A stretch of DNA of 64,000 nt from Verrucomicrobiota bacterium JB022 (lineage in GTDB: Bacteria; Verrucomicrobiota; Verrucomicrobiia; Opitutales; Oceanipulchritudinaceae). Shown piece after piece: positions 20,592-35,698 of this stretch. The translations under genes and the position numbers were made by a program. Positions within the stretch are counted from its first letter, which is position 1. Every line of letters begins with the position of its first letter. Below the pieces are notes generated by a model. The model was not told where the DNA came from, did not search any database, and worked only from the letters and a program-made list of their open reading frames with translations. The stretch covers positions 62,001 through 126,000 of the forward strand of contig JAUTCQ010000009.1 of assembly GCA_030673845.1 (NCBI GenBank), read 5' to 3'.

Positions 20592-20620
20592 CTCCCTTGG
20601 AGCTAGAACATCTCCATCCT

Positions 20621-20633
20621 TACCAGAAAGGTA
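20621..20633 (+). promoter_or_regulatory. Hairpin-embedded ribosome-binding site, flagellin 2 (CCAGAAAGG element)
   Basis: TACC-AGAAA-GGTA folds as a four-pair stem with loop AGAAA. AAAGG is the likely Shine-Dalgarno sequence and ends 8 bases before the ATG at 20640. The same loop and covarying stems occur before flagellin 3 and flbT. Confidence 0.6.
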
Positions 20634-20639
20634 GCCATC

Positions 20640-21713
20640 ATGAACTCCATCGCCCTTAGCGCCGGTATGCGCGCTAACCTCGTGTCGCTTCAGCAATCCT
20701 CCAAGCTGCTGGGCAACACCCAAGAACGTCTGGCCACTGGCCGGAAGGTGAACTCGGCCGTCGACAACCCGACGAACTTCTTCGCCGCCTCCAACCTCAA
20801 CGACCGTGCTACGCTCCTCGAAGCACGCCTTGACGGCATGGGCCAGGCGGTGAGCACGCTCGAAGCCGCCGACAATGGTATTACTGCCATGCGGGGCATC
20901 GTGAGTGCGATGAAGGGCGTGGTTGACGAAACCCTGTCCAGCTCCGACTCCACGGACCGCGCGAACCTGGGCAAGCAGTTCAACGAGCTGCTCGTCCAAC
21001 TGAAGACTTTTGCGGACGACTCTTCCTACAAGGGCGTCAACCTGCTGAAGTCCGACCAGGCCGACCGCACTTCCGGCGGGACGGAGACGATGACAGTCCA
21101 ATTCAACGAAAAGTTTGGCGATTCGCAGCTCTCGATCACCGGCATCAACGTGCAGGGTGCGACGGGTGGCGTGTCGCTGGACAGCAGCGGTGAAATCGCC
21201 AATGCCTCCGATATCACGGGCTCGCGCACGGTGGGGACCAACACGGTTTCCCAGCAGTACGCGATCACCCTCAACATCGACGGCACCGGCCTCACCAGCG
21301 GTGGCACCGGCGCGGCCAATGCGGCCGTGGTGGGCATCCGCTCGGCAGATATCACCGGTACGGCCGCCGCTGGCCAAAACGCCGGTGGCACCAGCCATAC
21401 GCTGAGCTTCGTTGATGGCGACAACTACCAGACCAACCTGCAGCAAATGGTGCAGGATCTGGAGGCGTTCGACCAAGCCCTCGTCAACACCGCCAAGCAA
21501 CTGTCCCAAAACGTGAACATCGTGTCCCTGCGGCAAGACTTCACGACGGACATGATCAACACGCTCGAAGAAGGCTCGGACAAGTTGACGCTCGCCGACT
21601 TGAATGAAGAAGGGGCGAATCTCCTCGCGCTGCAAACTTCGCAGCAGCTGGGGATTCAGTCACTGTCGCTGGCCTCGCAAAGCCAACAGTCCGTCCTCAG
21701 TCTCGTGGGTTAA
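20640..21713 (+). CDS. Flagellin, copy 2
   Basis: A 357-residue flagellin, exactly the length of copies 1 and 3 and closely similar throughout. It keeps the D0/D1 helices (MNSIALSAGMRANLVSLQQ, LATGRKVNSAVDNPTNFF) and the C-terminal half ends SLASQSQQSVLSLVG. It differs from copy 1 mainly in the middle variable part (SDQADRTSGGTETMTVQF) and in scattered positions. A good Shine-Dalgarno sequence sits 8 bases upstream within a small hairpin. A strong terminator follows. No sigma-28 match was found in the 218 bases upstream, so it may depend on an upstream promoter or on a motif I missed. Confidence 0.96.
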   Translation: MNSIALSAGMRANLVSLQQSSKLLGNTQERLATGRKVNSAVDNPTNFFAASNLNDRATLLEARLDGMGQAVSTLEAADNGITAMRGIVSAMKGVVDETLSSSDSTDRANLGKQFNELLVQLKTFADDSSYKGVNLLKSDQADRTSGGTETMTVQFNEKFGDSQLSITGINVQGATGGVSLDSSGEIANASDITGSRTVGTNTVSQQYAITLNIDGTGLTSGGTGAANAAVVGIRSADITGTAAAGQNAGGTSHTLSFVDGDNYQTNLQQMVQDLEAFDQALVNTAKQLSQNVNIVSLRQDFTTDMINTLEEGSDKLTLADLNEEGANLLALQTSQQLGIQSLSLASQSQQSVLSLVG

Positions 21714-21740
21714 TCCCTCGGACAGTGACTCCGATAAAAA

Positions 21741-21768
21741 AGCGCCCTCTCGCGGGGGCGCTTTTTTT
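21741..21768 (+). terminator. Strong rho-independent terminator after flagellin 2
   Basis: AGCGCCC (21741-21747) pairs with GGGCGCT (21756-21762), preceded by an A-run and followed by TTTTTT. Separates flagellins 2 and 3 into independent transcripts. Confidence 0.92.
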
Positions 21769-21806
21769 GTGCCCGGAAAAAATTTTCGCATCTCTCACAT
21801 TTTTCT

Positions 21807-21833
21807 CTCAACCGCGTCTAGGGCATCCGATTT
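21807..21833 (+). promoter_or_regulatory. Weak candidate sigma-28 promoter of flagellin 3
   Basis: TCCGATTT at 21826-21833 preceded at 15 bases by CTCA (or at 14 bases by TCAA). The -10 core CCGAT fits, the -35 is poor. Predicted start near 21840 would give a leader of about 70 bases containing the CCAGAAAGG hairpin. Confidence 0.35.
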
Positions 21834-21892
21834 ATAAGGCGTCGGCAAGAATTGCTGACAGCGGCAGAAGCCGCTTCCTCAAAAACATACAT

Positions 21893-21905
21893 CACCAGAA
21901 AGGTA
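21893..21905 (+). promoter_or_regulatory. Hairpin-embedded ribosome-binding site, flagellin 3 (CCAGAAAGG element)
   Basis: ACC (21894-21896), loop AGAAA, GGT (21902-21904), with an outer C/A mismatch. AAAGG ends 8 bases before the ATG at 21912. Nearly identical to the flagellin 2 element. Confidence 0.55.
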
Positions 21906-21911
21906 GTTCAC

Positions 21912-22985
21912 ATGAACGGCGTTACTCTATCCGCAGGTATGCGGTCCAACCTGGCTTCGCTTCAAAAGACGCAAGCCACTCTCGGCCAAACTCAAGAACG
22001 TCTGGCCACCGGTCGTAAGGTCAACTCCGCGATTGACAACCCGACCAACTTCTTCGCCTCGTCGAACCTCAATGACCGCGCCGGCAAGCTCGAAGCTCGC
22101 CTCGACGGTATGGGTCAGGCGATCAGCACGCTGAATGCGGCTGACAACGGCATCACCGCCATGCGCGGTATCGTCGGCGCCATGAAGGGTGTGGTTGACG
22201 AAGCCCTCGCCAGCTCCGACTCCAACGACCGCGCCAACTCCGGCAAGCAGTTCAATGAACTGATGGTTCAGCTGAACCAGTTTGCCAAGGACGCGTCCTA
22301 CAAGGGCGTGAACCTCCTGCAGTCGGCCCAGTCTGACCGCACTTCGGGTGGCACGGAAACGATGACGGTGCAGTTCAACGAATCCTTCGGCGACTCGACC
22401 CTCGAAATCAAGGGTGTGAACGTCCAAGGCTCCACCGCCGGCGTCACGACCGACTCCAACGGTGAAATCGCGAACTTCTCCGACATCACCGGTTCCCGCA
22501 CGGTCGGCACCAGCACGGTGTCCCAGACCTACGCCATCACGCTGAACGTCGACAGCTCCAGCATCGCCTCCGGTGGCACCGGCTCCGCCAACGCCGCCGT
22601 CGTGGGTATCCGCTCGGCCGACATCACCGGCGCCGAAGGCGCTGGCCAAGGCGCAGACGGCACGGCTGGCTCGATCAGCTTCGTGGACGACAGCACCTAC
22701 CAAGGTAACCTGCAGCAAATGGTGAAGGACCTCGAAGCCTTCGACCAAGCCCTGGTGAACAACGCGAAGCAACTGTCGCAGAACGTGAACATCGTTTCGC
22801 TCCGCCAAGACTTCACCACGGACCTGATCAACACCCTCGAAGAAGGTGCGGACAAGCTGACGCTCGCCGACCTGAACGAAGAAGGTGCGAACCTCCTGGC
22901 CCTGCAAACCAGCCAACAGCTCGGTATCTCCTCGCTGTCCCTGGCCTCGCAGTCCAACCAGTCGGTCCTCTCCCTCGTGGGTTAA
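21912..22985 (+). CDS. Flagellin, copy 3
   Basis: A 357-residue flagellin with the same architecture: MNGVTLSAGMRSNLASLQK at the start, LATGRKVNSAIDNPTNFF, a Ser/Thr/Gly-rich middle (VDSSSIASGGTGSANAA) and C-terminal LASQSNQSVLSLVG. The start was chosen by alignment with copies 1 and 2 and by the CCAGAAAGG leader; the frame continues 60 bases upstream without flagellin similarity. It has its own terminator on both sides, so it is a single-gene transcript. Codon choice looks the most uniform of the three (many GTC, ATC, AAG), which may mark the most highly expressed copy; this is an impression, not a calculation. Confidence 0.96.
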   Translation: MNGVTLSAGMRSNLASLQKTQATLGQTQERLATGRKVNSAIDNPTNFFASSNLNDRAGKLEARLDGMGQAISTLNAADNGITAMRGIVGAMKGVVDEALASSDSNDRANSGKQFNELMVQLNQFAKDASYKGVNLLQSAQSDRTSGGTETMTVQFNESFGDSTLEIKGVNVQGSTAGVTTDSNGEIANFSDITGSRTVGTSTVSQTYAITLNVDSSSIASGGTGSANAAVVGIRSADITGAEGAGQGADGTAGSISFVDDSTYQGNLQQMVKDLEAFDQALVNNAKQLSQNVNIVSLRQDFTTDLINTLEEGADKLTLADLNEEGANLLALQTSQQLGISSLSLASQSNQSVLSLVG

Positions 22986-23021
22986 CGACCGAGGTGGAGA
23001 CAGTATCTCCTCCTTTTCAAG

Positions 23022-23052
23022 AAGGGCAGGCCTGATCGGGCCTGCCCTTTTT
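23022..23052 (+). terminator. Strong terminator after flagellin 3
   Basis: GGGCAGGCC (23024-23032) pairs with GGCCTGCCC (23039-23047), followed by TTTTT. Confidence 0.93.
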
Positions 23053-23096
23053 GCTTATAGGGTAAGAACTTAACGCGCTACCTATGCAAAAGGCAC

Positions 23097-23123
23097 TAAC
23101 CCTGCTCCACAAGTGGTCGATAT
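23097..23123 (+). promoter_or_regulatory. Candidate sigma-28 promoter of the flagellin-like/GNAT cassette
   Basis: TAAC at 23097-23100, 15 bases, then GTCGATAT at 23116-23123. Two mismatches in the -10 and one in the -35. Predicted start near 23130 lies upstream of the ATG at 23147, which supports that start over the one at 23084. Confidence 0.45.
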
Positions 23124-23146
23124 TCCAACCCGGAAAGCTTTTCCCC

Positions 23147-24727
23147 ATGGAGCGCCTCAGTTCCCAGCAGATTCGCGAGTTCATCAACCCGCTGGCCTTT
23201 ACGACCTCGCGGAGTGCCACCGCCACGTCTTCCGCCGAAACGGCACGTGAGAAGCGGATCGTCACCTCCAATGCCAACGAATCGCTTTCCCTGATCCTCG
23301 GTGCCTCCGGTCGTCTGGACGACCTCCAATACAACCTCCAGTCGATGCGGGAATATGCGGTGCTGGGCTCCCGGGGGAGCCTGCCCGACCATAAATACGA
23401 CGAGTACTTCGGGGCGCTCCGCTCGTTGACAACCGGTTTCGAGCAGGTGGTGCAGGCCACGAAGTTCAAGAACAAGGAAATTTTCGATGGGCGCGAAGTC
23501 GTGCTCAACACCGGCGCCAGCAAGGTCAAGCTCGACATCAAGAGCCTCGGCCTCTCGGGCGACGAATCGCTCGACCTGATCAAGCGCCCTGCCGGGGCCA
23601 AGATCGACGTCGGCTACGATGTCGCCACGCTCGTCCGCAACCAGTCTTCGGGCCTCAAGGGCTTGGATATTTCGTCCGCCCGCGGCATCGAACGCACCGA
23701 CTTCATGCCGGAGCTGAAGGACGGTAACTACAAGCTGGAGATCGTCTATCAGGGGCCGGATTCGCAAATCAAGATTCGCGACCAGTTCGGCAAGTTGCTG
23801 GAGACGAAGAAGGGCGTCGACCTGAGCGGATCCGGCCAGGAAAAGGTGCAGATGGGCATCGGGATGGAGCTCACGATCGACAAGCTTCAGGTGCTGCAAT
23901 CTTACGACAAGTGGGATTACGAGAACGACGGCCCCGTCTCTCTCTACGCCGACCTCGATTACAAGCAGGTCTATTTCCACGAATTGCAGGACGGCAAGGA
24001 AGCCGCCAACCAGACGAGCAGTGTAGACTGGGACTTCAAGGCGCGCCGCCGCTACACCGGCCCCGCGCTGAACCTGTTGGGCATCGAAACCAACGGGGTC
24101 GACCCGGTGAAGCAGGAGCTGGAGAGCGGCGTCTACAATATGAAGGTGATTTACAAGGGCGCCAAATCGGTGGTGGAGCTTTACGACGCCGATGGCATGC
24201 TCAAAAGCCGCGTCGGCGGTCTCGACTTGTCGGCGCAGGGCGAACACGACATCGACCTCGGCACGGGGGTGCGCTTTACCTTCGAGAACAAGGGCTACGG
24301 GGCGGATGACCGCAAGACGATCCACGCCACTTTCAGCTACGAATCTGCCGATTCCTACGAACGCGATTTCGACTTTGCTGGCTACGTGAAGAAGATCGAC
24401 GCCGCGCTCGAAGTCATTGCCGAGCAGAAGGCGAGCTTTGCGCAGGCCCAGGATCAGGTGATGCGCGTGGTGCAGCTGCAACAGGGCTTTGCCACCGGCT
24501 CGGCCAACGGTGCTGCCGCTGCCGCCATGCTGGGCGCAGCCGGCGGCTCTTCCAACATCCTCGGCCTGATGGGCTCGATGGGGGGCGGCTCTGGGATCAT
24601 GGGGATCATTGGAGGCAATCCGGCGGCTTCGGCGCAGCTCAACGCCACGGCGGCGCAAATGCTTTCGACCATCAGCTCGGCCGGTGCCGCTGCCGGGAAC
24701 CTTTCGTCGCGCGCAATGTCCTACTAG
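23147..24727 (+). CDS. Flagellin-like filament-associated protein with duplicated beta domain
   Basis: A 526-residue protein. Residues 45-145 look like a flagellin D1 helix pair (LDDLQYNLQSMREYAVLGSR, then ATKFKNKEIFDG), and residues 412-446 resemble the returning C-terminal helix (IDAALEVIAEQKASFAQAQD). Between them are two copies of a beta domain, about residues 190-246 (GNYKLEIVYQG) and 325-381 (GVYNMKVIYKG). The last 80 residues are Gly/Ala/Met-rich and hydrophobic, unlike a flagellin terminus. The start at 23147 has GGAAAG nine bases upstream; an ATG at 23084 would lie upstream of the promoter candidate. It is neither FlgL nor a recognisable FliD. It heads a tight operon with three modification enzymes, so a minor filament or cap-like component is a fair inference. 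Confidence 0.7.
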   Translation: MERLSSQQIREFINPLAFTTSRSATATSSAETAREKRIVTSNANESLSLILGASGRLDDLQYNLQSMREYAVLGSRGSLPDHKYDEYFGALRSLTTGFEQVVQATKFKNKEIFDGREVVLNTGASKVKLDIKSLGLSGDESLDLIKRPAGAKIDVGYDVATLVRNQSSGLKGLDISSARGIERTDFMPELKDGNYKLEIVYQGPDSQIKIRDQFGKLLETKKGVDLSGSGQEKVQMGIGMELTIDKLQVLQSYDKWDYENDGPVSLYADLDYKQVYFHELQDGKEAANQTSSVDWDFKARRRYTGPALNLLGIETNGVDPVKQELESGVYNMKVIYKGAKSVVELYDADGMLKSRVGGLDLSAQGEHDIDLGTGVRFTFENKGYGADDRKTIHATFSYESADSYERDFDFAGYVKKIDAALEVIAEQKASFAQAQDQVMRVVQLQQGFATGSANGAAAAAMLGAAGGSSNILGLMGSMGGGSGIMGIIGGNPAASAQLNATAAQMLSTISSAGAAAGNLSSRAMSY

Positions 24728-24729
24728 TC

Positions 24730-25683
24730 GTGGCCGCCGCGTCGCAGTCTACCCCGCTCTACGCCAGCGCTGGCTATGCCCAGAGCTTTGCCGAATGGAT
24801 GCAACCGGTACCCTTGCCCCGCGCAGGTGGCCATTTACTTGCGCGCGCCTGGCAGGCGACAGGCTGGGATTTGATGGCGCCCTACCCTTTGCTGCAGGTG
24901 GCTAACTGGCAGGCGCTGGAAGAGGACCTCGCGGGACTCGACCCGCGTTACGCCAGCCTCGTCGGGGTGACCGATTCGCTGGCGGACGTGACGGAGGCTC
25001 AACTGCAGGCACTTTTTCCCGCCCTTTGCCGTCCCTTCAAGCAGCACCAGATCGTGGATCTGCAAAACGAGCCGGCCTCGCATTTCAGCAAACACCACCA
25101 GCGCTACGCACGTGCCGCCGCCAAAGTAGTGGAAGTCGAGGAGCTGCCTTCGCCCGTGGAGGTGCTGGACACCTGGTGCGCCCTGTATGACGAATTGATC
25201 CGCCGACACGAGATCACGGGGTTGACGCGCTTTTCCCGGGAGAGCTTTGCGGTCCTGCTCGGCCAGCCGGGGTGCCGGGCCTTTGCCGCACGCCACCGCG
25301 AGAGCGGCGAGATCGTGGGCATGATCCTGATGGCCGACGCCGGTATCGATACGCATTACCACTTGGGGGCCTACAGCCCGGCGGGCTACGAAGCGAAGGC
25401 GTCTTTCGCGCTGTTCGATGCGATTATCGCCCGCTATGCCCAGGAGGGTTTCCGCTTTCTCAATCTCGGCGGAGGTGCGGGGTTCAAGGACGACCCGAAC
25501 GACGGGCTGGCGCAATTCAAGCGGGGCTGGGCCACGATCCAGCGCCCATCTTACCTGATTGGGCGAATCATTAACCATGCTTACTATGAAAATTGGAGCA
25601 ATAGTGCCGATGCCTTAGATAGCGCCTATTTTCCAGCCTATCGTGATCCTCATCTTCGCCCATCATTTTCCGACCGCTCCTGA
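24730..25683 (+). CDS. GNAT/FemAB-like acyltransferase
   Basis: A 317-residue protein beginning with GTG two bases after the preceding stop. Residues 100-280 have the pattern of a GNAT (Acetyltransf_6/BioF2-like) domain: SKHHQRYARAAAK, the helix TWCALYDELIRRHEI, AARHRESGEIVGMILMADAG, YHLGAYSPAGYEAKASFALF and GFRFLNLGGGAGF. Proteins of this type transfer acyl or aminoacyl groups to amines, for example on nucleotide sugars or in peptide bridges. With the AMP-ligase-like gene 2 bases downstream and the formyltransferase beyond, it likely modifies an amino sugar, but the donor is unknown. Confidence 0.65.
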   Translation: MAAASQSTPLYASAGYAQSFAEWMQPVPLPRAGGHLLARAWQATGWDLMAPYPLLQVANWQALEEDLAGLDPRYASLVGVTDSLADVTEAQLQALFPALCRPFKQHQIVDLQNEPASHFSKHHQRYARAAAKVVEVEELPSPVEVLDTWCALYDELIRRHEITGLTRFSRESFAVLLGQPGCRAFAARHRESGEIVGMILMADAGIDTHYHLGAYSPAGYEAKASFALFDAIIARYAQEGFRFLNLGGGAGFKDDPNDGLAQFKRGWATIQRPSYLIGRIINHAYYENWSNSADALDSAYFPAYRDPHLRPSFSDRS

Positions 25684-25685
25684 CC

Positions 25686-27245
25686 ATGTCTAGCTATCAC
25701 TATAATCTCGGACTTTCTTTCTCTGCGGTAGCCGAACAACATGGTGACCGTCCTGCGCTCCGCTACCCGAACGGTCGCAACGTCACCTACCGTCAACTTT
25801 TGGTGCGGGCGCGGCAGATGGCCCGCCTGATGAGCTCGCGCGGGCTGGGCATGGGCGACGTGGTCTGCATTTTCCCCAACCAGTCGATCGACGCCTTCGC
25901 GACGGTCCTGGCCGCCCTGAGCATGGGCGTGATCTATACCCACCTCGACCTCAACCTGCCGGACGCCACCCTGCAGAGCATGATGGAGCAGGCCCGCCCG
26001 CAACTGGTGCTGGCCTCGCGCTCCGACCGCCTGCGCGCCTGCGCCCTCTCCAACCATGTGGGGCGTCGACTCATCTGTTTCGAGGATCCTCAGATCCAGA
26101 CCGAGCTGATGGCACACCCGGCCGATGAGCTGATGGAGACCCCGGCGGTAACGGGCCACCACCCGGCTTACCTGATGTTCGACATCGAGGCGGAGGGCCA
26201 GCCGACGGCCTCCATGATCACCCATGCGAACCTGCTGAATTTCGTGGCCTGGGTCCGGGAGCGCTTCATGGTGTCGCCCGACGACGTCTTTACGCACCTC
26301 AACCACCTCGCCTACGAAAACGGCGTCTTCGATCTTTTCGGCAGCCTTTTCAATGGTGCCTCGCTCGTGCCGATTGGCCGCGAGGTGCTGCACCAGCCGC
26401 GCGAACTGATCAATACGGTCAACGACATGGGCTGCACGATGTGGTATTCGGTGCCTTCGCTCTTGATCTACCTGCTGCGCTTGCACGCGCTGCGCCCGGG
26501 CGACCTGCGTGGCCTCTGCACGGTAGCTTTTGGCGGCGAAACGTTCCCCAAGGCTCCGCTGCGCGCGCTGGCCCGCCACCTGGGCGCCGGCATCCGCCTG
26601 ATGAACGTCTACAGCCTGGCCGAAGCGACGAGCATCGGCGCGGCCTACACCGTCAATCCACGCGACCTGGTCGAAGACCGCCTGTTACCCTTGGGCCATT
26701 TCGCCGAAAACTTCCAGGCCCACGTGCTCAACGATCAAGGCCAGCCCGTGCCGGTGGGTCAAGTGGGCGAGCTCTACCTGAGCGGTCCAAATCTCGGGCT
26801 GGGCTACTACCGCGATGCCGCCCGCACCGAGCAGGCTTTCTTCCGCTACGTAAACGAGAAGCACATCCCGGAGACGGTCTTCCGCACCGGCGATCTCGTA
26901 CGCCAGGACCCGGAGACGGGCTACTACCACTTTGTCGGCAGCCGCCGCAACCGTGTGGAGCGCAGCGGCCACGTGATCGAGCTGGAGTTGATCGAAGCCT
27001 CGCTGGGCTCGCTGGAGGGCGTGTCGGAGTGCGCGGTCGTCTACCTGCGCGACGCCCAGGGCCAAGGCCGCATCGTCGCCTACGTCAACGCGAAGGATTT
27101 CGACGGCGAGGTGCTGATGATGGCCCTGCGCTGCCGCCTGCCGCAACACATGTTGCCGGAGCAGATCGTATCGCTGTCTCCCCTGCCCAAGCACGCCGAC
27201 GGCAAGGTGAATCGACAACAGCTTGCAGAGATGACGCTCTCCTAG
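25686..27245 (+). CDS. Adenylate-forming (ANL) enzyme with degenerate P-loop
   Basis: A 519-residue protein of the acyl-CoA synthetase/NRPS adenylation superfamily. Visible motifs: ALRYPNGRNVTYRQL at the start, GGETFPKAPL, MNVYSLAEAT (A5), GELYLSGPNLGLGYY (A6), FRTGDLVR (A7), RNRVERSGHVIELELIE (A8) and the C-terminal lysine motif ADGKVNR near residue 507. The A3 phosphate loop, normally YTSGTTGxPKG, reads MFDIEAEGQPTAS around residue 163, so the Ser/Thr/Gly loop is lost. No carrier-protein domain is fused or adjacent. It starts 3 bases after the GNAT gene. It may act as an acyl-activating enzyme with altered ATP contact, or be catalytically inactive. Confidence 0.75.
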   Translation: MSSYHYNLGLSFSAVAEQHGDRPALRYPNGRNVTYRQLLVRARQMARLMSSRGLGMGDVVCIFPNQSIDAFATVLAALSMGVIYTHLDLNLPDATLQSMMEQARPQLVLASRSDRLRACALSNHVGRRLICFEDPQIQTELMAHPADELMETPAVTGHHPAYLMFDIEAEGQPTASMITHANLLNFVAWVRERFMVSPDDVFTHLNHLAYENGVFDLFGSLFNGASLVPIGREVLHQPRELINTVNDMGCTMWYSVPSLLIYLLRLHALRPGDLRGLCTVAFGGETFPKAPLRALARHLGAGIRLMNVYSLAEATSIGAAYTVNPRDLVEDRLLPLGHFAENFQAHVLNDQGQPVPVGQVGELYLSGPNLGLGYYRDAARTEQAFFRYVNEKHIPETVFRTGDLVRQDPETGYYHFVGSRRNRVERSGHVIELELIEASLGSLEGVSECAVVYLRDAQGQGRIVAYVNAKDFDGEVLMMALRCRLPQHMLPEQIVSLSPLPKHADGKVNRQQLAEMTLS

Positions 27246-27258
27246 CAAAGTCGGGCCG

Positions 27259-28143
27259 ATGCAGCCTCGGCAATACCTCCTGATCGCCAATCGTGCCTAC
27301 GCGTGGGAACGCATGGTGCGGCTGGGGCTGAACGTGGCCGGGATTGCTGCCGTGGCGGGCTCTTACCTGGAGCGGCGACTCGTAGCCGAGGGGGTGCCGC
27401 ATTTTTCCTTCGACCGCAAACGACAGTTGCTCGACTGGCTCAAGCTGCAGTCGGCCGATGTGGTCGTATCCAATGGCTGCCCGTTTATCCTGCCGATTTC
27501 GGCACTGACGGAGCCGTTGCCGGGCGTGCGGTTCGTCAACCTGCACCCGTCTTGCCTGCCCGACCTGAAGGGGCCCCACCCAATCAACGGCGCGCTGCTG
27601 CATGGCCGCGATGCGGGTGCTTCGTGCCACTTGATGGACGATGGGATCGACACCGGGTCCATCATTTCGCGGGTGCGCATCCCTTTTTCACCGGATCTCG
27701 ATGCGGGCCTGCTCTACCAGCTGTGCTTCCAGGCCGAGGCTGATGCCTTTGAGCTGGCGCTGACCCGTGATTTCGCGCCTTTGCCCGCAAGCGAAACGCT
27801 ACCTGGGCCCCGCGAGCTTCCCCTGCTCTATTACCGCGCCGGAGAAGAGGACCTGCGGATCGACTTTGGGGAAAGCGCGCAGCAGATTTGCCGCCGCATC
27901 CGGGCGTTTGCCACACGAGGCCGAGGGGCCTTCGCCATCATCGCCGGCGAGCGTTTTGTGATCCGCGACGTGGAGACGATCGAGAATCCTTACGTGCTGG
28001 AACAGTTACCGAAGCACGCCGATCGCTCGATCCTGTTCGTCTACGAAGGGCGCGTCGTCGTCCGCCTCGGGTCGGAGTGCCTGAAGCTGAAAGCGATTGA
28101 GGGGCCGGTGGAAAAATTGTCTCCCGCCCAGCGTCTCGTCTAG
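27259..28143 (+). CDS. Formyltransferase-family protein, probable amino-sugar N-formyltransferase
   Basis: A 294-residue protein. The formyl_trans_N core has the catalytic HPS motif FVNLHPSCLPDLKGPHPING near residue 94 and the catalytic aspartate motif MDDGIDTGSII near residue 130; Asn in VVSNGCPF is the third active-site candidate. The C-terminal 80 residues form an OB-like domain as in Fmt, but the sequence is too divergent for methionyl-tRNA formyltransferase. Relatives such as WbkC and VioF transfer a formyl group from 10-formyl-tetrahydrofolate to 4-amino sugars. It ends the flagellin-like/GNAT/ligase operon. A DegT aminotransferase at 46-47 kb could supply the amine. Confidence 0.75.
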   Translation: MQPRQYLLIANRAYAWERMVRLGLNVAGIAAVAGSYLERRLVAEGVPHFSFDRKRQLLDWLKLQSADVVVSNGCPFILPISALTEPLPGVRFVNLHPSCLPDLKGPHPINGALLHGRDAGASCHLMDDGIDTGSIISRVRIPFSPDLDAGLLYQLCFQAEADAFELALTRDFAPLPASETLPGPRELPLLYYRAGEEDLRIDFGESAQQICRRIRAFATRGRGAFAIIAGERFVIRDVETIENPYVLEQLPKHADRSILFVYEGRVVVRLGSECLKLKAIEGPVEKLSPAQRLV

Positions 28144-28288
28144 GCCTTTGGCATGCCGCAGGGCATGGAAAACTCTTCCGCCCGGCTGCGGAAAGGGTTG
28201 CCGCCAAGAAAAGCGTCACGAGGAGAGAAAACTTTATCGCACTGATAAAGAGCGTATTATAAAACGCGGCACCGTGGTTGCTTATTCG
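28144..28288 (+). promoter_or_regulatory. Structured leader region of the flgF operon
   Basis: No gene is visible. CATGCC/GGCATG (28152-28157 with 28162-28167) and TTCCGC/GCGGAA (28176-28181 with 28188-28193) can form hairpins, neither followed by a T-run. CTTTATC/GATAAAG (28232-28238 with 28244-28250) is an inverted repeat next to TATTAT (28255-28260), a possible -10 box. No sigma-28 or sigma-54 match. Confidence 0.4.
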
Positions 28289-29056: not shown

Positions 29057-29071
29057 CCCTGATCACCGGCC

Positions 29072-29854
29072 ATGAACCTTTCCCTTTACGCCAGCGCCAC
29101 GGGCATGGAAGCCCAGCAGCTCAACCTGAATAACATCGCGAACAATATCGCGAACGTGAATTCGACGGGCTACAAGCGCTCCAAGGTCGAATTCCAGGAT
29201 CTGCTCTACCAAAGCCAGGCCCCCAAGGGCGGCGATGTGGGCGGCGGCGGCACTGCCCCGACCGGCATCGAAGTCGGTAACGGTAGCCGCGCGGTCTCCA
29301 CCACCAAGGTGTTCTCCCAAGGCCAGCTGACCCAGACGGACAACCAGTGGGACGTGGCCATCGACGGCGAGGGCTTCTTCCAGCTGACCCGCGCCGACGG
29401 CTCCACGGTTTACACCCGCGACGGCTCCCTCAAGGTCGACCCGACCGGCCAGATCGTGAACAACAACGGTCTCGTCTACACCGGCCTCGGCGCTGTCCCG
29501 GCCAACGTCACCGGCGTGTTCGTCGCGCCGACCGGCGAAGTGAGCTTCGAGACGCCCAACGGCATCGTGCCCGGCCCGGTGATCCAGATGACCCGCTTCA
29601 GCAACCCGAACGGCCTCAAGTCGCTCGGCGGCAATCTTTACGAAGAAACCCAAGGCTCCGGCGCCCCCGTCGTCGGCAATGCCGGGACGGATGGTTTTGG
29701 CGTGCTGCGCCAGAACTACCTCGAAATGTCGAACGTCAACGTGGTCGAGGAGATGGTCAATATGATCGTCGCCCAGCGCGCCTACGAGATCAACTCGAAG
29801 GCGATCCAGACCAGTGACGAGATGATGGCCACCGTCAACCAGCTCAAGCGCTAG
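29072..29854 (+). CDS. flgG: Flagellar distal rod protein FlgG
   Basis: A 260-residue protein with a textbook N-terminus (MNLSLYASATGMEAQQLNLN, NIANNIANVNSTGYKRSKVEF), the specific middle segment QLTQTDNQWDVAIDGEGFFQ and the C-terminal rod helix NVVEEMVNMIVAQRAYEINS ending AIQTSDEMMATVNQLKR. FlgG forms the distal rod below the hook; the length is that of the family. It overlaps flgA by a single base (the G of the stop codon is the G of the GTG start). Confidence 0.96.
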   Translation: MNLSLYASATGMEAQQLNLNNIANNIANVNSTGYKRSKVEFQDLLYQSQAPKGGDVGGGGTAPTGIEVGNGSRAVSTTKVFSQGQLTQTDNQWDVAIDGEGFFQLTRADGSTVYTRDGSLKVDPTGQIVNNNGLVYTGLGAVPANVTGVFVAPTGEVSFETPNGIVPGPVIQMTRFSNPNGLKSLGGNLYEETQGSGAPVVGNAGTDGFGVLRQNYLEMSNVNVVEEMVNMIVAQRAYEINSKAIQTSDEMMATVNQLKR

Positions 29855-30675
29855 TGATCCGCATCCTCCAGTCCATTCCGCTCCTGCTCGTCGGTAGTCA
29901 GGCCCTCGTTGCCGCTCCGGCGGACAGCCTGATGGCCCTACTCGAGCCGGTCGCCATGGTGGAAGCCGCGTCGCAAAAGAGCGCCGCCCCGGTGATTACG
30001 TCCGCCCCCGCCCAAGCCAAGGTGGTCGCCGAAAGCGCCACGGTGATGGAGCTGGGCCACGAGGTGGTCGTGGGCCTGCTGCAGGCCAAGCTGGCCAGCT
30101 ATTACCGCCTGAGCGGCGACCTCGTGCTGCAGCCGCAGGGCCGAGTCGTCCCCGCTGCCGTCAAGGGCAGCTACGACCTGCAAATCCTTTCCGCTCCGGC
30201 CGACTTGAGCCAGAGCGTCTACGTGCGCTACCAAATCACGAGCGATGGCGTGCCGGTGCAACAAGCGAGCCTGCAACTGCGGGCCGAGCACTGGCTCGAA
30301 GTCTACGTCGCCCGTCAAAGCGCCCGCCGCGGTGAAGCCCCCCAAATGGCCGACCTGATCCTGGAGAAGGTCGACACATTGCGCTACCGCGAAGAGCTGG
30401 TCGACGCCGCAGTCGACCTCGGTGCTTACGAGCTGGCCCTGCCCACGCAGCCCAACCGCCCGCTCGCCTGGCGCAACCTGACGACCCGCCCCCTGATCAA
30501 AAAGGGTGCGTTGATCGACGCCCAGGCCAGCAACCTCGCCATGGTCATCACCCTGCCCGCCGTCGCGCTCGAAGACGGGCAGAAGGGTGACTTCATCCGC
30601 GTCCGCAACCTGCAAAGCCGCAAGGACATTACCGCCCGCGTCATCGATGAAAATGTGGTGCAAGTCAATTTCTAG
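29854..30675 (+). CDS. flgA: P-ring assembly chaperone FlgA
   Basis: A 273-residue protein with a GTG start and a signal-like N-terminus (LQSIPLLLVGSQALVAAP). The C-terminal half is a SAF/ChapFlgA module: LEVYVARQSARRGEAPQMADL, AWRNLTTRPLIKKGALID, VALEDGQKGDFIRVRNLQSRKDIT and ARVIDENVVQVNF at the end. FlgA is a periplasmic chaperone needed to assemble FlgI around the rod. The N-terminal half is less conserved, as usual. The end overlaps the flgH start by about 29 bases. Confidence 0.88.
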   Translation: MIRILQSIPLLLVGSQALVAAPADSLMALLEPVAMVEAASQKSAAPVITSAPAQAKVVAESATVMELGHEVVVGLLQAKLASYYRLSGDLVLQPQGRVVPAAVKGSYDLQILSAPADLSQSVYVRYQITSDGVPVQQASLQLRAEHWLEVYVARQSARRGEAPQMADLILEKVDTLRYREELVDAAVDLGAYELALPTQPNRPLAWRNLTTRPLIKKGALIDAQASNLAMVITLPAVALEDGQKGDFIRVRNLQSRKDITARVIDENVVQVNF

Positions 30676-31297
30676 CCTCGCGCTCGTCCTCGCCGTCTCT
30701 ACCGCTTCGGCGGAATCCCTCTGGAAGAAGGCGACGAACGACGAACGCGGCCTCTATACCCGCCAGACGGCTTCCCGGGTGGGCGACATCCTGACGGTGC
30801 TCGTCAGCGAAAACGCCTCCCTCTCCGCCAGTGGACCCAACATGCAGAACGCCGGCTCCACCTCGGGCCTCAAGTCGGAAATCTTCCGCCTGATCGACGA
30901 GAAGGACCTGCACCCGCTGCACATCGGCACCAACAGCAGCGGCGAGCCGATCGAGGTCGACCTCTCCAGCATCTTCCGGGGTGATTACGCGAGTGGCGAT
31001 GCGAGCTACGAGCAGACCATGAGCGTGTCTCAAGTGCCCATTTCCGTGACGGTGATCGACACCTTGCCCAACGGCAACCTGGTGGTCGAGGGCGCCAAGA
31101 TCGTCTCGGTCAACAAGGAGCGCCTCTACGCCGTGCTGCGCGGTGTCGTGCGCCCGCAGGACGTGACCGGCACCAACACCGTCACCTCCGGCCAGGTGGC
31201 CAACGCCTACGTGGAATTCGTAAGCGAAGGCAGCCTGAGCGACGCCCAAAAGAAGGGCTGGTTTACCCGCATGATCGAAAGGGCCAACCCGTTCTGA
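30647..31297 (+). CDS. flgH: L-ring protein FlgH without a lipobox
   Basis: A 216-residue FlgH. Recognised by the early SLWKKATNDERGLYTRQTAS, VGDILTVLVSENASLSAS, RGDYASGDASYEQTMSVSQ, VIDTLPNGNLVVEGAKIVS and VRPQDVTGTNTVTSGQVANA. FlgH forms the outer-membrane ring. Typical FlgH is a lipoprotein; this one has a signal peptide that appears to end STASA|ES with no cysteine near the cleavage site (only Cys5, at the start of the hydrophobic stretch). The start codon (ATG 30647 or 30653) lies inside flgA, so the two are coupled. FlgI follows 3 bases later. Confidence 0.93.
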   Translation: MKMWCKSISSLALVLAVSTASAESLWKKATNDERGLYTRQTASRVGDILTVLVSENASLSASGPNMQNAGSTSGLKSEIFRLIDEKDLHPLHIGTNSSGEPIEVDLSSIFRGDYASGDASYEQTMSVSQVPISVTVIDTLPNGNLVVEGAKIVSVNKERLYAVLRGVVRPQDVTGTNTVTSGQVANAYVEFVSEGSLSDAQKKGWFTRMIERANPF

Positions 31298-31300
31298 GCC

Positions 31301-32452
31301 ATGAAGCGCCTCTTCGCCATTTTCCTCCTCAGCCTCCTGGCCGGCCTCGCGTCGGCCCAGGCCTCCCGCATCAAAGACCTCACGGTGGTCGAAGGCGGCC
31401 GGTCTAACCAATTGATCGGCTACGGCCTCGTCGTGGGGCTGGCGGGCGATGGCGACGGCACGAGCAGCAAGGCCACGCTGCAGTCGGTCGCCAACATGCT
31501 TTCCCGCTTCGGCGTCCAGGTGGATACCGAAGACATCAAGAGCGACAATGTGGCCGCGGTCATGATCACGGCCGAGATCGGCGCCTTTACCCGTGAGGGT
31601 ACCCGCCTCGACGTGGTCGTCAGCTCCATCAGCGACGCGAAGACGATCCAGGGCGGCGTGCTGCTGCAAACCCCGCTGCGCGGTGCCGACAACGTCGTCT
31701 ACGCCGTCGCCCAAGGGCCCATCGCGGTAGGCGGCTTCCTTGGCGGCTCCGGAGGCTCCACGGTGCAGAAAAACCACCCGACGGTGGGCCGGATCCCCGG
31801 CGGCGCGATCGTGGAGCGTGAGGTGCCGACCACCATCGTGCAGCGCGACATGCTCAACCTCTTGCTGCTCAATCCAGATTTTACCACGGCGGTGCGGATG
31901 GCGCACTCGATCAACGAGCGCTTCCCCGGCGTGGCCCAGGCGACCGATTCGGCAGCCGTCAATGTGCTGGTGCCGCAAAACATGCGCAACCAGGTGGCCA
32001 ACTACCTCGCGGTGATCAACTCGCTGGAGGTCATCCCCGACATCACGGCACGGGTGATCATCAACGAGCGCACCGGCACCATCGTCGCGACCCAAAACGT
32101 GCGGATTTCGAAGGTGGCGATCAGCCACGGCTCGCTGACGGTCACGATCAGCCAGAGCAACAACGTGAGCCAGCCCAACCCGCTGGCCCCTGCCCCGCCC
32201 GCCGGTGGACAGCCCACCCAGGGCGAAGACGGCACCATCGTCGCCCCCGGCGGCAATACCGTCGTGACCGCCAACACCCAGACCGATGTGGCCGAAGAGC
32301 GCGGCGGCTTCCGGGTGATCGACGACCTGCCGACGCTCGACCAACTGACTTCCGCCCTCAACGCCCTGGGCGTCTCCACCCGCGACATGATGTCGATCCT
32401 GCAATCGCTCAAGGCTGCAGGCGCCCTCCAGGCCGAACTCATTATCCAATAA
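31301..32452 (+). CDS. flgI: P-ring protein FlgI
   Basis: A 383-residue protein with signal peptide (LFAIFLLSLLAGLASAQA). Hallmarks: RIKDLTVVEGGRSNQLIGYG, VVGLAGDGDGT, FTREGTRLDVVVSSISDAK, GGVLLQTPLRGAD, and the C-terminal SALNALGVSTRDMMSILQSL. FlgI polymerises around the rod in the peptidoglycan layer. A Pro/Gly-rich insertion (LAPAPPAGGQPTQGEDG) sits near residue 300, a spot where the family varies. Length matches the family. Confidence 0.97.
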   Translation: MKRLFAIFLLSLLAGLASAQASRIKDLTVVEGGRSNQLIGYGLVVGLAGDGDGTSSKATLQSVANMLSRFGVQVDTEDIKSDNVAAVMITAEIGAFTREGTRLDVVVSSISDAKTIQGGVLLQTPLRGADNVVYAVAQGPIAVGGFLGGSGGSTVQKNHPTVGRIPGGAIVEREVPTTIVQRDMLNLLLLNPDFTTAVRMAHSINERFPGVAQATDSAAVNVLVPQNMRNQVANYLAVINSLEVIPDITARVIINERTGTIVATQNVRISKVAISHGSLTVTISQSNNVSQPNPLAPAPPAGGQPTQGEDGTIVAPGGNTVVTANTQTDVAEERGGFRVIDDLPTLDQLTSALNALGVSTRDMMSILQSLKAAGALQAELIIQ

Positions 32453-32460
32453 CTGCCGCC

Positions 32461-32799
32461 ATGGACATTACCAACGCCATCAGCCCCATGACGACCGACG
32501 CCTCCCTCTTGCGCGACCAGCTCTCGCAGGCGGGCGCGCAGCAGGGCGCCAGCGAGGTCGAACTCGCAAGCGGCCAGTTCGAAGCCATTTTTGCCCGCCA
32601 GTTCCTGGACGAAGCCCTCAAGCCGATGTTCTCCGGCGCGCTCTCCGAGAGCGGTGCCGGGCCCGACCTCTACCGCTACATGCTGGCCGACAGCCTCTCG
32701 CAGAGCATCAGCCAGCGCGGCGTCTTCGGCATCGGCCATGTGCTGCAACACCAACTGCAATCCACCCCCGCCGCCAACGCGGATACCCTTTCCCACTAA
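32461..32799 (+). CDS. flgJ: Rod-binding protein, FlgJ N-terminal domain only
   Basis: A 112-residue protein corresponding to the rod-scaffold half of FlgJ: QFEAIFARQFLDEALKPMF, then GPDLYRYMLADSLSQSIS and GVFGIGHVLQHQL. The peptidoglycan hydrolase domain of enterobacterial FlgJ is absent, as in many phyla where a separate enzyme opens the wall. Located between flgI and the FlgN gene with 8- and 2-base gaps. Confidence 0.88.
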   Translation: MDITNAISPMTTDASLLRDQLSQAGAQQGASEVELASGQFEAIFARQFLDEALKPMFSGALSESGAGPDLYRYMLADSLSQSISQRGVFGIGHVLQHQLQSTPAANADTLSH

Positions 32800-32801
32800 C
32801 C

Positions 32802-33311
32802 ATGATCGCTCTAGACGAAGCCCAATGGCAGCCTTTGGCCGCCGCCTTGCGGGACGAGGCCCAGGAATACGCCTGGTTGCTCTCCCTCCTCGAGCAGCAG
32901 CAAAAGGGCATCCTCGAGCAGAACTACGCCGAATTTCCGGAGCTGACCCACTCGATCGAAGAGCAGCTCCGCACCACGGCCGAAAAGCGCGGCAGCCGCG
33001 AATCCCTCGCCCAACAGTTGCGCCGTCAACTGGGGATGGACGAGCGTGCGCCGCTGCGCGAAATCGTCCAACTGGTGCAGGGCCCCGCCCACGGCATGTT
33101 CGACGAGCTGCTCAAGGAGCTGCGCAGCCTGACGGAGCGCCTGCAAAACCGCTCGCGCCAAAACAAGCTGCTGCTCGCCCGTGCCAACGAACTTTCCCGG
33201 GAACTGCTGAGCTACCTCCAGCCCACGCAGAGCCAGACGACTTACAACCAACGTGGCTACCTGGCCTTCAAGACCAATAGCCGCAGCACCTCCCTGAGTC
33301 TGCAAGCCTAG
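32802..33311 (+). CDS. flgN: Flagellar export chaperone FlgN
   Basis: A 169-residue mainly helical protein matching FlgN in length and pattern: a long helix with EYAWLLSLLEQQQKGIL, then LTHSIEEQLRTTAEKR, and a final stretch LLARANELSRELLSYLQ followed by a loop with YNQRGY, where the family usually has Y.Y...G. FlgN binds the C-termini of FlgK and FlgL, the two genes immediately downstream, before export. Sequence identity in this family is always low; context carries much of the call. Confidence 0.8.
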   Translation: MIALDEAQWQPLAAALRDEAQEYAWLLSLLEQQQKGILEQNYAEFPELTHSIEEQLRTTAEKRGSRESLAQQLRRQLGMDERAPLREIVQLVQGPAHGMFDELLKELRSLTERLQNRSRQNKLLLARANELSRELLSYLQPTQSQTTYNQRGYLAFKTNSRSTSLSLQA

Positions 33312-33316
33312 CTCCC

Positions 33317-34735
33317 ATGGCCCTCCTCCAAGGCATTTCTTCCAACGCGCAAGCCCTCAACACCTACGGGCGCGCTCTGCAAGTGACGGGCAACAACATT
33401 GCCAACGTCAACACGCAAGGTTATGCCCGCCAAGTCGTCCAGGTCGGCTCCAGCCACAGCTACACGCAAGGCCGCTCGGTCCAGTCGACGGGCCTCTCCG
33501 TCACCGGCTACAGCGACGTGCGCAACAGCATGCTCGACGCCCAGATCATGCGCGAGCAGAGCGTGGCCAGCCGCTACGGCAAGGAGACCGAAATCCTCTC
33601 CGAGCTGCAGACGCTGCTGGGCGACACCCTCGGCAAGACGGAGGCCCTTTCCACCCTCGACGGCGCTTCGGAAGATACGCTCTCCGGCGGGCTGCGGGGC
33701 GACTTGCAGGCCTTCTTCTCTTCCTGGGACGCCCTCGCCGCCGCCCCCAACAACAGCTCGGCCAAGGCCCAGGTGCTGGAGGAAGCCCAAACGCTGATCG
33801 AGCGCCTCAACTCGACCGACACCCGCCTCGCCAACATGCAGGGCGACCTCGACCAACAGGCGGGCCTGTTGATCGGCCAGGTGCAAAAGCAAGTGAGCCT
33901 GATCGGCGATTACAACCGCCAGATTTCCAGCCTCGGGCCGAAACAGACCGAGCAGGCCAATGAACTGGAAAGCAAGCGCCAGCAGGCCCTCGAAGAGCTT
34001 TCCAAGTATCTCGACTTTACGCCGCAGCCGCAGGACAACGGGATGATCAACCTGATGGTCACCACCACCGACGGCTCCAACCTGAGCCTGCTCGAAGGCG
34101 CCGGCAGCACCCTGAAGCTGAGCTGGCAAGACGGCAAGCTGGTGGGCGGGCCCGATGGCGGCACCCTGCGCCTCAACAACGGCCAGCTGGCCGCGATCGA
34201 GAAGAGCCGCAACGGCATCATCGCCGAAGCCCGGGGCACGCTCGATGCCGTGGCCGGCCAGCTCGTCCAGTCCACCAACGCGGTTTACAACCCCACTGGT
34301 GCGGCGGGGCAGAACTTTTTTGCCGCCGATGGCCAGACGGCCGGCAGCCTGCGCCTCGAAACCGGCCTCACCGCCGTCACGCTGCGGGCCAACAGCCCGG
34401 GCAGCGCGACCAGCAATGATGCCGCCCTCGCCATCGGCAAGCTCGCCACGCGCGAGTTCTCGGGCGCAGCCGGCGAGGTGATCGAAGGCACTTTCGACAG
34501 CTACTTGACGGACTTGACCGTGAAGGTGGGCTCGCGTCTTCAAGGCGCTCAGCAGGATGCCGATACTCAAACGACCATCCTCACTTACCTCGAAACCCAG
34601 CGCGACAGCGAGATCGGCGTGAACCTCGACGAAGAGGTGGCGCGCATGCTCCAGTTCCAGCGCTCGTATCAAGCTTCCTCCCGCGTGATGCGGGTCATGG
34701 ATGAAATGATCCAGGACCTGCTCAACCAGATCTAG
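33317..34735 (+). CDS. flgK: Hook-filament junction protein FlgK (HAP1)
   Basis: A 472-residue FlgK. N-terminus ISSNAQALNTYGRALQVTGN-type, NNIANVNTQGYARQVVQVGS, the family's QSTGLSVTGYSDVRN, the FFSSWDALAAAP-like segment and the C-terminal helix NLDEEVARMLQFQRSYQASS with VMRVMDEMIQDLLNQI. Joins the hook to the filament together with FlgL. Shorter than the enterobacterial protein (about 550) through a reduced middle domain. The gene starts 5 bases after flgN. Confidence 0.95.
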   Translation: MALLQGISSNAQALNTYGRALQVTGNNIANVNTQGYARQVVQVGSSHSYTQGRSVQSTGLSVTGYSDVRNSMLDAQIMREQSVASRYGKETEILSELQTLLGDTLGKTEALSTLDGASEDTLSGGLRGDLQAFFSSWDALAAAPNNSSAKAQVLEEAQTLIERLNSTDTRLANMQGDLDQQAGLLIGQVQKQVSLIGDYNRQISSLGPKQTEQANELESKRQQALEELSKYLDFTPQPQDNGMINLMVTTTDGSNLSLLEGAGSTLKLSWQDGKLVGGPDGGTLRLNNGQLAAIEKSRNGIIAEARGTLDAVAGQLVQSTNAVYNPTGAAGQNFFAADGQTAGSLRLETGLTAVTLRANSPGSATSNDAALAIGKLATREFSGAAGEVIEGTFDSYLTDLTVKVGSRLQGAQQDADTQTTILTYLETQRDSEIGVNLDEEVARMLQFQRSYQASSRVMRVMDEMIQDLLNQI

Positions 34736-34757
34736 TTACTGCTAAACCGTCTGTCCC

Positions 34758-35651
34758 ATGCGCGTCACATCCGACACCCTCTCCCGCAACATCCTCCCGC
34801 AACTCAACCAGTTGCAGGCGCGCCGGCAGCAGCTCCAGTCGACCATCGCGAGCGGCGTCAAGCTTTCGAACGCCTCCGATGCGCCCGCCGACGCTGCGCA
34901 GGTCGCGCGCATGAGCACGGCCCAGCAGGCGGCGGTCAACTACCGCCGCAATGCTGACATGGCGACGACGCAGATCAAGACGAGCGACCAGCAACTGGCC
35001 TTGCTCGGCAAGTTCCACGACCAGACCAATGGCCTGCTGGAAGGATACAACCAGGACCCGAGCGCCGAGCAGCAGGCGGCGACGGTCGAGACGCTCAACG
35101 AGCTGATCGAACAGACGGTAACGGTGCTCAATGACAAGTTGAACGACCAGCCGCTCTTCGGGGCCGACGGCACTTCGACGACGCCTTTTGCCATCGCACG
35201 CGACGCCGACGGCAACATCACCAGCTTTACCTACGAGGGCGGCACGGGTGACTGGAAGCTGCCCGCCAGCGCCTCGACCCAGATCAGCGCCGCCACCAAT
35301 GGCGCGACCAACGCCAGCCTCGCCGACTGGGCCAACCAGCTGATCGCCCTGCGCGATGCCGTCGCTACCGGCGAGCGCACCGCCGTCGATACCGCCTCCA
35401 ACAATTTTGACCTCGCGGAAGACAATCTGATGCTCGCACAAGTCGAGCTGGGCGGTAAACTGGCTCGGGCCGAAGCTGTCCGCAGCTCCGAATCCGAGAT
35501 GTTCAACCTCCGTCAGGATGGGATCAACCAGCGCACCCAAGCCAACGTGACCGAAGCGATCGTCCAGTTCCAACAGGTGAACCAAGCCTACCAGGCCTCT
35601 CTGCAAGCCGCGAGCCTGACGATGAACATGTCGTTGCTCGATTTTATCTAA
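34758..35651 (+). CDS. flgL: Hook-filament junction protein FlgL (HAP3)
   Basis: A 297-residue flagellin-related protein. N-terminus MRVTSDTLSRNILPQLNQLQ, then ASGVKLSNASDAPADAAQVA, the central helix VETLNELIEQTVTVLNDKLN with PLFGADGTS, and the C-terminal helix NVTEAIVQFQQVNQAYQASL ending SLTMNMSLLDFI. It sits between FlgK and the filament. This is the last gene of the nine-gene operon; flbT follows after 52 bases. Confidence 0.94.
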   Translation: MRVTSDTLSRNILPQLNQLQARRQQLQSTIASGVKLSNASDAPADAAQVARMSTAQQAAVNYRRNADMATTQIKTSDQQLALLGKFHDQTNGLLEGYNQDPSAEQQAATVETLNELIEQTVTVLNDKLNDQPLFGADGTSTTPFAIARDADGNITSFTYEGGTGDWKLPASASTQISAATNGATNASLADWANQLIALRDAVATGERTAVDTASNNFDLAEDNLMLAQVELGGKLARAEAVRSSESEMFNLRQDGINQRTQANVTEAIVQFQQVNQAYQASLQAASLTMNMSLLDFI

Positions 35652-35657
35652 AACCTG

Positions 35658-35685
35658 CAAAGTCCATCCGCATTTCACCCGATCT
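35658..35685 (+). promoter_or_regulatory. Weak candidate sigma-28 promoter before flbT
   Basis: CAAA at 35658-35661 and CCCGATCT at 35678-35685, spaced by 16 rather than 15 bases. If used, transcription would start inside the CCAGAAAGG hairpin and remove half of it. Confidence 0.25.
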
Positions 35686-35698
35686 ATCCAGAAAGGAT
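35686..35698 (+). promoter_or_regulatory. Hairpin-embedded ribosome-binding site, flbT (CCAGAAAGG element)
   Basis: ATCC-AGAAA-GGAT, four-pair stem and the same AGAAA loop as before flagellins 2 and 3. Compared with flagellin 2, the two outer pairs are exchanged (T-A to A-T and A-T to T-A). AAAGG ends 7 bases before the ATG at 35704. Confidence 0.55.

Follow-up and report, generated by a model that had tools for sequence, protein, structure and literature searches.

FlbT control of the fljK flagellin mRNA in Caulobacter was reportedly described by Anderson and Gober in 2000, whose study might include a description of part of the leader in that species. Since that year FlbT has been reported to act on flagellin 5' untranslated regions (UTRs), for Caulobacter in the part available of a review whose table leaves the recognition motif of FlbT blank ('/') and gives its mechanism as 'Unresolved'. 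The stretch analysed here (the window, 64,000 nucleotides (nt) of the Opitutales genome of Verrucomicrobiota bacterium JB022) encodes an FlbT protein and three flagellins, and short hairpins presenting AGAA in the loop precede two of these flagellin genes and flbT. The AGAA hairpin is a real, widespread RNA element of FlbT-type flagellin leaders, and it is probably, as far as sequence comparison can tell, an RNA operator read by FlbT and used like CsrA sites. The locus shares with Caulobacter FlbT/fljK the protein family (PF07378), the kind of target gene and the site of action in the flagellin 5' UTR; what is proposed here in addition is a loop motif, together with its architecture and spread. 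This would provide a candidate four-letter RNA target for FlbT, common to Verrucomicrobiota, delta-type proteobacteria and at least two alphaproteobacterial orders. In the consulted parts of the literature on FlbT, FlaF, fljK and flagellin leaders, no AGAA motif for FlbT was found described. The background given here draws on parts of PMC4347634, PMC4894983, PMC8306008, PMC7591256, PMC8781033, PMC3930126, PMC2446400, PMC2864571, PMC3765529, PMC11607428, PMC12363192 and PMC6692469.

The second system for comparison is that of CsrA and FliW, which targets hag in Bacillus subtilis and flaA in Campylobacter. According to the excerpts consulted, CsrA sites read AnGGA, usually lie in stem-loops and are often found near ribosome sites, and the C. 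jejuni flaA 5' UTR contains two stem-loops with A(U/A)GGA. The AGGA hairpins of these flagellin leaders and the AGAA hairpins would be used likewise, but the loop here is AGAA, CsrA was not found in FlbT-positive genomes, and FlbT possesses a predicted C-terminal helical bundle. If true, the same task is carried out by two regulators on almost identical RNA layouts. AGAA gives way to the CsrA motif where CsrA occurs instead of FlbT. The third system is the flg-Rhizobiales RNA (Rfam RF01736), a candidate cis-regulatory RNA of Rhizobiales with three stem-loops in the entry as far as it was available, from which the present element differs in that the six Hyphomicrobiales leaders read lack AGAA hairpins. 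RF01736 gave no match in the window (gathering score), in 40 loci with FlbT-type leaders (E 5 or gathering score) or in two Hyphomicrobiales stretches. A known Rfam family was rejected more generally, as neither the window nor 20 loci gave a match at the gathering score; up to E 5 the 20 short loci returned three chance matches, and up to E 0.1 the two Hyphomicrobiales stretches returned none.

The window belongs to a genome (G000) of 4.35 Mb in 25 contigs; among named relatives, the closest one found is Puniceicoccaceae bacterium 5H (L070; FlbT 92% identical). The flagellin genes lie at 19.3-23 kb of the window and flbT and flaF at 35.7-36.5 kb (Table 1). The original prediction placed a hairpin before the start codons of flagellin 2, flagellin 3 and flbT (ATGs 20640, 21912 and 35704), 7-8 nt away; the three are there, and the distance from the GG of the 3' arm to the ATG is 7-8 nt in each. 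The predicted hairpin turns out to be one component, at the ribosome site, of a larger leader with several hairpins. Two further AGAA hairpins precede it in the flagellin-3 leader (21841-21859, 21860-21875), giving three in tandem with AGAA in every loop, while flagellin 2 and flbT have one each, at the ribosome site. In the related genome G016, the flagellin-2 counterpart also has the TACC/GGTA stem, and hairpins 1 and 2 of flagellin 3 read CGTCAGCA-AGAAA-TGCTGATG and GCGG-CAGAAG-CCGC. Immediately before flagellin-3 hairpin 1 stands what we take, by eye, to be a sigma-28-like promoter, which would start the transcript about where the tandem hairpins begin.

The pattern ACCAGAAAGGT occurs twice in the window, for 0.01 expected from shuffles. 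The core CCAGAAAGG alone is weaker evidence, with three matches for 0.47 expected and one of 100 shuffles equally good; genome-wide it has 59 occurrences, for 21 of the reversed pattern, and six of the 56 outside the window's three are followed at 3-16 nt by an ATG (open reading frame of 60 or more codons, or open to the stretch end). AGAA hairpins of at least 5 base pairs (bp) have a background rate of 0.0099 per 110 nt (288 kb of strand, from the window and four 20-kb stretches on both strands), and the flagellin-3 leader folds better than all 200 of its shuffles (z -3.15). Covariation, from which an RNA structure had been deduced, is thin within the window, where it amounts to two outer pairs in one comparison, but RNA structure is borne out far beyond it.

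Among 273 genomes sampled from the order, FlbT was found in 15, which belong to five families, and flagellin in 81. All 256 tetramers were scored in flagellin leaders for lying in a hairpin loop of 5-7 nt, closed by a stem of at least 4 bp with no more than one G-U pair, within 110 nt before the start. AGAA ranks first of the 256 in the FlbT-positive leaders of the order (24/36; shuffles mean 2.2, maximum 7), is tied first in delta-type leaders (6/6, closely similar to each other, two being left after redundancy filtering) and ranks first again in the FlbT-positive leaders of an alpha sample of presumed alphaproteobacterial genomes, whose flagellins were read in part (15/48; shuffles mean 2.8, maximum 9). 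Redundancy filtering leaves 23/33 in the order and 14/47 in the alpha sample. Among FlbT-negative flagellated relatives of the order AGAA is found in 0/30, AGGA and AAGG leading with 18 each, and in FlbT-negative alpha-sample genomes it is near chance (2/15). Counted by genome, AGAA hairpins occur in 12/15 FlbT-positive genomes of the order, 6/6 delta-type and 12/25 alpha genomes, as compared to 0/30 and 2/15 FlbT-negative genomes of the order and the alpha sample. Some flagellin matches were set aside: six partial rows among 28 (L092, L100, L101, L102, L104, L105), ten hook-associated or weak paralogues among 24 (L126, L135, L136, L138-L144), and L287, which is too short. Two of the ten paralogues (L140, L143) bear a 4-bp AGAA hairpin, and including all ten changes 24/36 to 26/46. 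Seven of a further 17 matches were retained (L205 and six delta-type ones); the others were hook-associated, broken (L207) or without the hairpin (L219).

The same element is found in alphaproteobacteria identified by name. Among ten flagellin leaders located beside flbT in named Rhodospirillales and Rhodobacterales, some closely related to each other, nine carry AGAA hairpins with stems of 4 to 8 bp: Azospirillum (3), Pseudoroseomonas, Alloyangia, Salipiger, Cereibacter sphaeroides, Loktanella and Paroceanicella. One of these stems reads TTTTCGCC-AGAAA-GGCGAAGA. The tenth leader, of a second Loktanella flagellin, shows two hairpins by eye that fall outside the one-G-U rule. L331 and L333 have no annotated flagellin near flbT, and L325, annotated 'flagellin' beside flgK and without an AGAA hairpin, was excluded from this count.

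The motif is strand-specific: AGAA scores 24 and TTCT 2, which argues for RNA. To note, one flagellin in each of G013, G014, G001 and G015 (L085, L091, L095, L096) carries, 52-61 nt before the ATG, the inverted repeat ACATAA-AGAAC-TTATGT (CATAA/TTATG in L095), which meets the AGAA rule yet is also a good DNA palindrome. These repeats of 5-6 bp would suit DNA operators for a transcription factor. Such an explanation of the inverted repeats is nonetheless very improbable: the fixed orientation disfavours it, G-U pairs are found in stems, and numerous sites coincide with the ribosome site.

The pairing around the loop varies in sequence and is kept as structure. Upstream stems of FlbT-positive leaders include GTTGGC-AAGAAG-GCCAAC, ACAACC-AGAAT-GGTTGT, CAGCC-AGAAA-GGCTG and CGGTA-AGAAT-TACCG, and ribosome-site stems include ACC-AGAAA-GGT, TACT-AGAAA-AGTA and AACT-AGAAT-AGTT, with TCCT-AGAAA-AGGA in six delta-type genomes. 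When sites at -75 to -28 are picked by AGAA alone, 26 of 32 in the order have stems of at least 4 bp, versus 6.5 (maximum 14) with their flanks mixed; the alpha sample has 10 such sites among 24, for a null of 2.4 (maximum 7). Over all 119 unique FlbT-positive AGAA sites, 49 have such stems, versus 8.7 (maximum 19). Each of the inner four pairs shows 4 to 6 standard pair types in the 29 sites with a five-nt loop and a stem of at least 4 bp. With G-U pairs unrestricted, an upstream stem of at least 4 bp is found in 23 of the order's 36 leaders, a ribosome-site stem of at least 3 bp in 20, both in 15 and either in 28. The covariation expected among relatives was recovered at the ribosome site, where pairs 1-4 exceed permutation (P 0.023, 0.0002, 0.0008 and 0.032; 26 unique sites, order and delta-type) and pair 5 does not in the same sites (P 0.10).

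These data bear on a more trivial explanation, that the ribosome-site hairpin is a Shine-Dalgarno AGAAAGG preceded by a chance CC and shared by paralogous flagellins. The GG of the 3' arm is indeed part of the Shine-Dalgarno, flagellins 2 and 3 are 81% identical and CCAGAAAGG is not rare in the genome. However, many hairpins, the longest included, lie about 30-65 nt upstream, clear of the Shine-Dalgarno, and the ribosome-site pairs covary across families, making this artefact hardly credible. In G242 the hairpin is preserved with U-A as its inner pair, the Shine-Dalgarno having lost its GG. For the upstream hairpins, chance or a Shine-Dalgarno artefact is ruled out by the tetramer ranking, the shuffles and the flank mixing.

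CsrA (PF02599) was sought in 60 genomes of the order: the 15 with FlbT, 34 of the 66 that are flagellated and FlbT-negative, and 11 of the 192 lacking flagellin. These groups contain it in 0/15 (G000 included), 32/34 and 0/11 genomes, respectively, and the contrast of 0/15 with 32/34 (Fisher P 9e-11) shows that the presence of FlbT and that of CsrA are mutually exclusive. In the alpha sample, CsrA occurs in 10 of 76 genomes and FlbT in 26 (G325 being below the family cut-off), never in one genome, and nine of 19 FlbT-negative flagellated genomes have CsrA. The leaders differ in the same way. CsrA-like AGGA hairpins are borne by 18 of the 30 FlbT-negative leaders of the order (L145-L174); AGGA lies within 25 nt of the start in 25/30, accompanied by an upstream AGGA hairpin in 16/30. 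There is apparently a second, CsrA-based flagellin system within the same order. One CsrA-lacking control, G034, nonetheless bears an AGGA hairpin, which may reflect a gap in the assembly. The window genome does not have leaders of the CsrA type, as CsrA was not found in it and no AGGA loop hairpin occurs in the FlbT-positive leaders of the order (0/36). It encodes FlbT, and its AGAA leader hairpins co-occur with FlbT, a criterion proposed here, which makes its leaders candidates for the FlbT-bound class of the Caulobacter type.

The hairpins could instead act without any protein, as 5' stabilisers, translation-tuning structures or thermometers: flagellin-3 hairpin 1 stands at the presumed 5' end and the short ribosome-site stems could melt. 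Yet the loop letters are constant and the stem letters vary, a bare stabiliser needs no AGAA, and AGGA substitutes where CsrA occurs instead of FlbT; a protein-free role is quite improbable. A protein operator with another reader from the FlbT-type cluster (FlaF, another RNA-binding protein or an endoribonuclease) deserves more attention, although it too appears unlikely. The association of AGAA is known by genome only, flaF adjoins flbT in the window and in 13 of 15 annotated regions, and Hyphomicrobiales are FlbT-positive yet hairpin-less. Against this, the available part of the review names FlbT as the protein acting on flagellin 5' UTRs, and FlaF is described, in the portion consulted, as a secretion chaperone in Caulobacter. 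The preference for FlbT as the reader, also the candidate of the original prediction, comes from reports that this protein of the cluster acts on flagellin leaders. Co-occurrence with AGAA, exclusion with CsrA and the exchange of AGGA for AGAA in the leaders all point indirectly to FlbT, but FlbT-positive Hyphomicrobiales do not display the motif.

Several observations weigh against an AGAA operator read by FlbT. The statistics throughout are without phylogenetic correction. In the order, 12 of 36 FlbT-positive leaders have no AGAA hairpin (4 bp, one G-U allowed). In the alpha sample, 33 of 48 FlbT-positive leaders lack an AGAA hairpin, as do 13 of 25 FlbT-positive genomes in the leaders read (4 or more bp); AGGA hairpins occur in six of the 48, above the shuffle mean (2.1) and inside the range (maximum 7). 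Ribosome-site pairing in the alpha sample is significant at pair 1 only (P 0.03), so this copy is not established there as a structure. Within the window, the leaders of flagellin 2 (z +1.0) and flbT (z -0.4) fold no better than shuffles. Finally, none of six flagellin leaders of FlbT-containing Hyphomicrobiales has an AGAA hairpin (Sinorhizobium meliloti 4, Phyllobacterium, Methylorubrum). RF01736 is located before flagellin genes, and Brucella belongs to the same order as these leaders. As FlbT has been proposed as an activator in Brucella, in the part available of a review, FlbT may read something else in Hyphomicrobiales. With respect to the 12 hairpin-less leaders of the order, L129, L132, L133 and L134 retain ACC-AGAA at the ribosome site (with a C-A mismatch in L133), and L129 and L132 have upstream stems of 7-8 bp excluded solely for their G-U pairs; the one-G-U rule thus misses some hairpins, as in the second Loktanella flagellin.

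Given the layout and the way FlbT and CsrA replace each other, the hairpins are most simply read as a translational operator. FlbT-type flagellin leaders carry one to three short hairpins with AGAA in a loop of 5-7 nt. One or two of these lie upstream, about 75-28 nt before the start codon, and many leaders have a further one with its 3' arm over the Shine-Dalgarno. FlbT would attach to the upstream hairpin or hairpins as an anchor and to the ribosome-site hairpin as a lock, the latter together with FlbT barring 30S subunits from the start site. Flagellin synthesis would be restrained until flagellin export relieves the block, with the participation of FlaF, as in the Caulobacter model. AGGA in the corresponding places of FlbT-negative relatives would be the CsrA counterpart of this layout.

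The resemblance of the two layouts raises the question of kinship between their readers. By eye, FlbT residues 1-50 resemble CsrA, ending in VxxLRxKDI for VxVxRKEV/I, and hhalign aligns the two N-terminal profiles collinearly over 44-50 columns at a probability of about 1% (P 0.02-0.05); neither this alignment nor that of the whole profiles (P 0.12-0.42) counts as significant. The AlphaFold2 model of the FlbT N-terminus (predicted local distance difference test 81, predicted template modelling score 0.46) has five short strands. No CsrA was among the matches listed by Foldseek or VIA-align for the whole and N-terminal FlbT models, a monomer being a poor probe of a strand-swapped dimer, and the best PDB sequence match is a designed protein (E 1.6). 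Residues 52-131 are predicted to form a four-helix bundle that matches many others, for example the flagellin chaperone FliS (6lea_A, Z 6.5, root-mean-square deviation 3.5, 80 aligned), and is not distinctive. FlbT as a CsrA homologue is thus not shown, as the profile alignments are not significant and CsrA is not among the structural matches listed. It is a tentative idea, for which the odds are rather poor, that one ancient architecture of flagellin leaders has two readers, FlbT and CsrA, which may be remotely homologous, and that the single-letter loop change from AGGA to AGAA marks their exchange across phyla.

Autoregulation of flbT, which had been proposed from its own hairpin, finds weak support. 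A ribosome-site hairpin precedes flbT in two of the 15 FlbT-positive genomes of the order, but both (G000, G016) belong to one genus. Among the flbT leaders of the other 13, that of G045 is the sole one with an AGAA hairpin, which has 4 bp and is placed about 100 nt upstream; delta-type flbT leaders have none (0/6). In the alpha sample 4/24 have a hairpin of at least 4 bp, a number nearly accounted for by the rate in shuffled leaders. With the ribosome-site hairpin confined to one genus and these 4/24, autoregulation is possible in that genus and is not supported as a rule.

Table 1. Flagellin, flbT and flaF genes of the window and the AGAA hairpins of their leaders
Feature	Position	Strand	Remarks
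Flagellin 1	19348..20421	+	paralogue, ATG 19348
Ribosome-site AGAA hairpin, flagellin 2	20621..20633	+	TACC-AGAAA-GGTA; a U-G pair lengthens it to 20620-20634
Flagellin 2 (357 aa)	20640..21713	+	Flagellin_N, E 1.2e-11
Upstream AGAA hairpin 1, flagellin 3	21841..21859	+	GTCGGCA-AGAAT-TGCTGAC, 7 bp, one G-U
Upstream AGAA hairpin 2, flagellin 3	21860..21875	+	AGCGG-CAGAAG-CCGCT
Ribosome-site AGAA hairpin, flagellin 3	21894..21904	+	ACC-AGAAA-GGT
Flagellin 3 (357 aa)	21912..22985	+	Flagellin_N, E 8.9e-14
Ribosome-site AGAA hairpin, flbT	35686..35698	+	ATCC-AGAAA-GGAT; in the 52-nt gap after a FlgL-like gene; also in G016
flbT (136 aa), proposed reader	35704..36114	+	Pfam PF07378, E 4e-39, match 35704-36111; single match in the whole genome
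flaF, partner gene of flbT	36151..36540	+	Pfam PF07309, E 1.7e-26

The delta-type leaders (L071-L076) share, besides the AGAA element, a CCCGGC-GAGATC-GCCGGG hairpin, which is shortened in L072 and differs by one base in L075. Upstream they have in common a longer conserved stretch, GTGCTCACC..GGGAGGT. Some flagellin paralogues are devoid of AGAA hairpins of 4 or more bp: flagellin 1 of the window (and its G016 counterpart), L090, L094, L122, L130 and L137. A sigma-54-like pattern is found upstream of L090 and of flagellin 1, in the latter case TGGCATCGGTTGC at 19243-19255. These paralogues might be flagellins with an early or regulatory role that escape FlbT control. A special flagellin of Caulobacter, FljJ, is described in the part of the source consulted as a co-repressor alongside FlbT, and by analogy one might guess at an FljJ-like part for flagellin 1. 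Directly after flaF, at 36561-40577 (+), lies the gene of a 1338-residue tetratricopeptide repeat protein with a glycosyltransferase family 41 domain (PF13844, E 1.3e-72). This protein is a candidate flagellin O-glycosyltransferase, comparable in parts to FlmG of Caulobacter.

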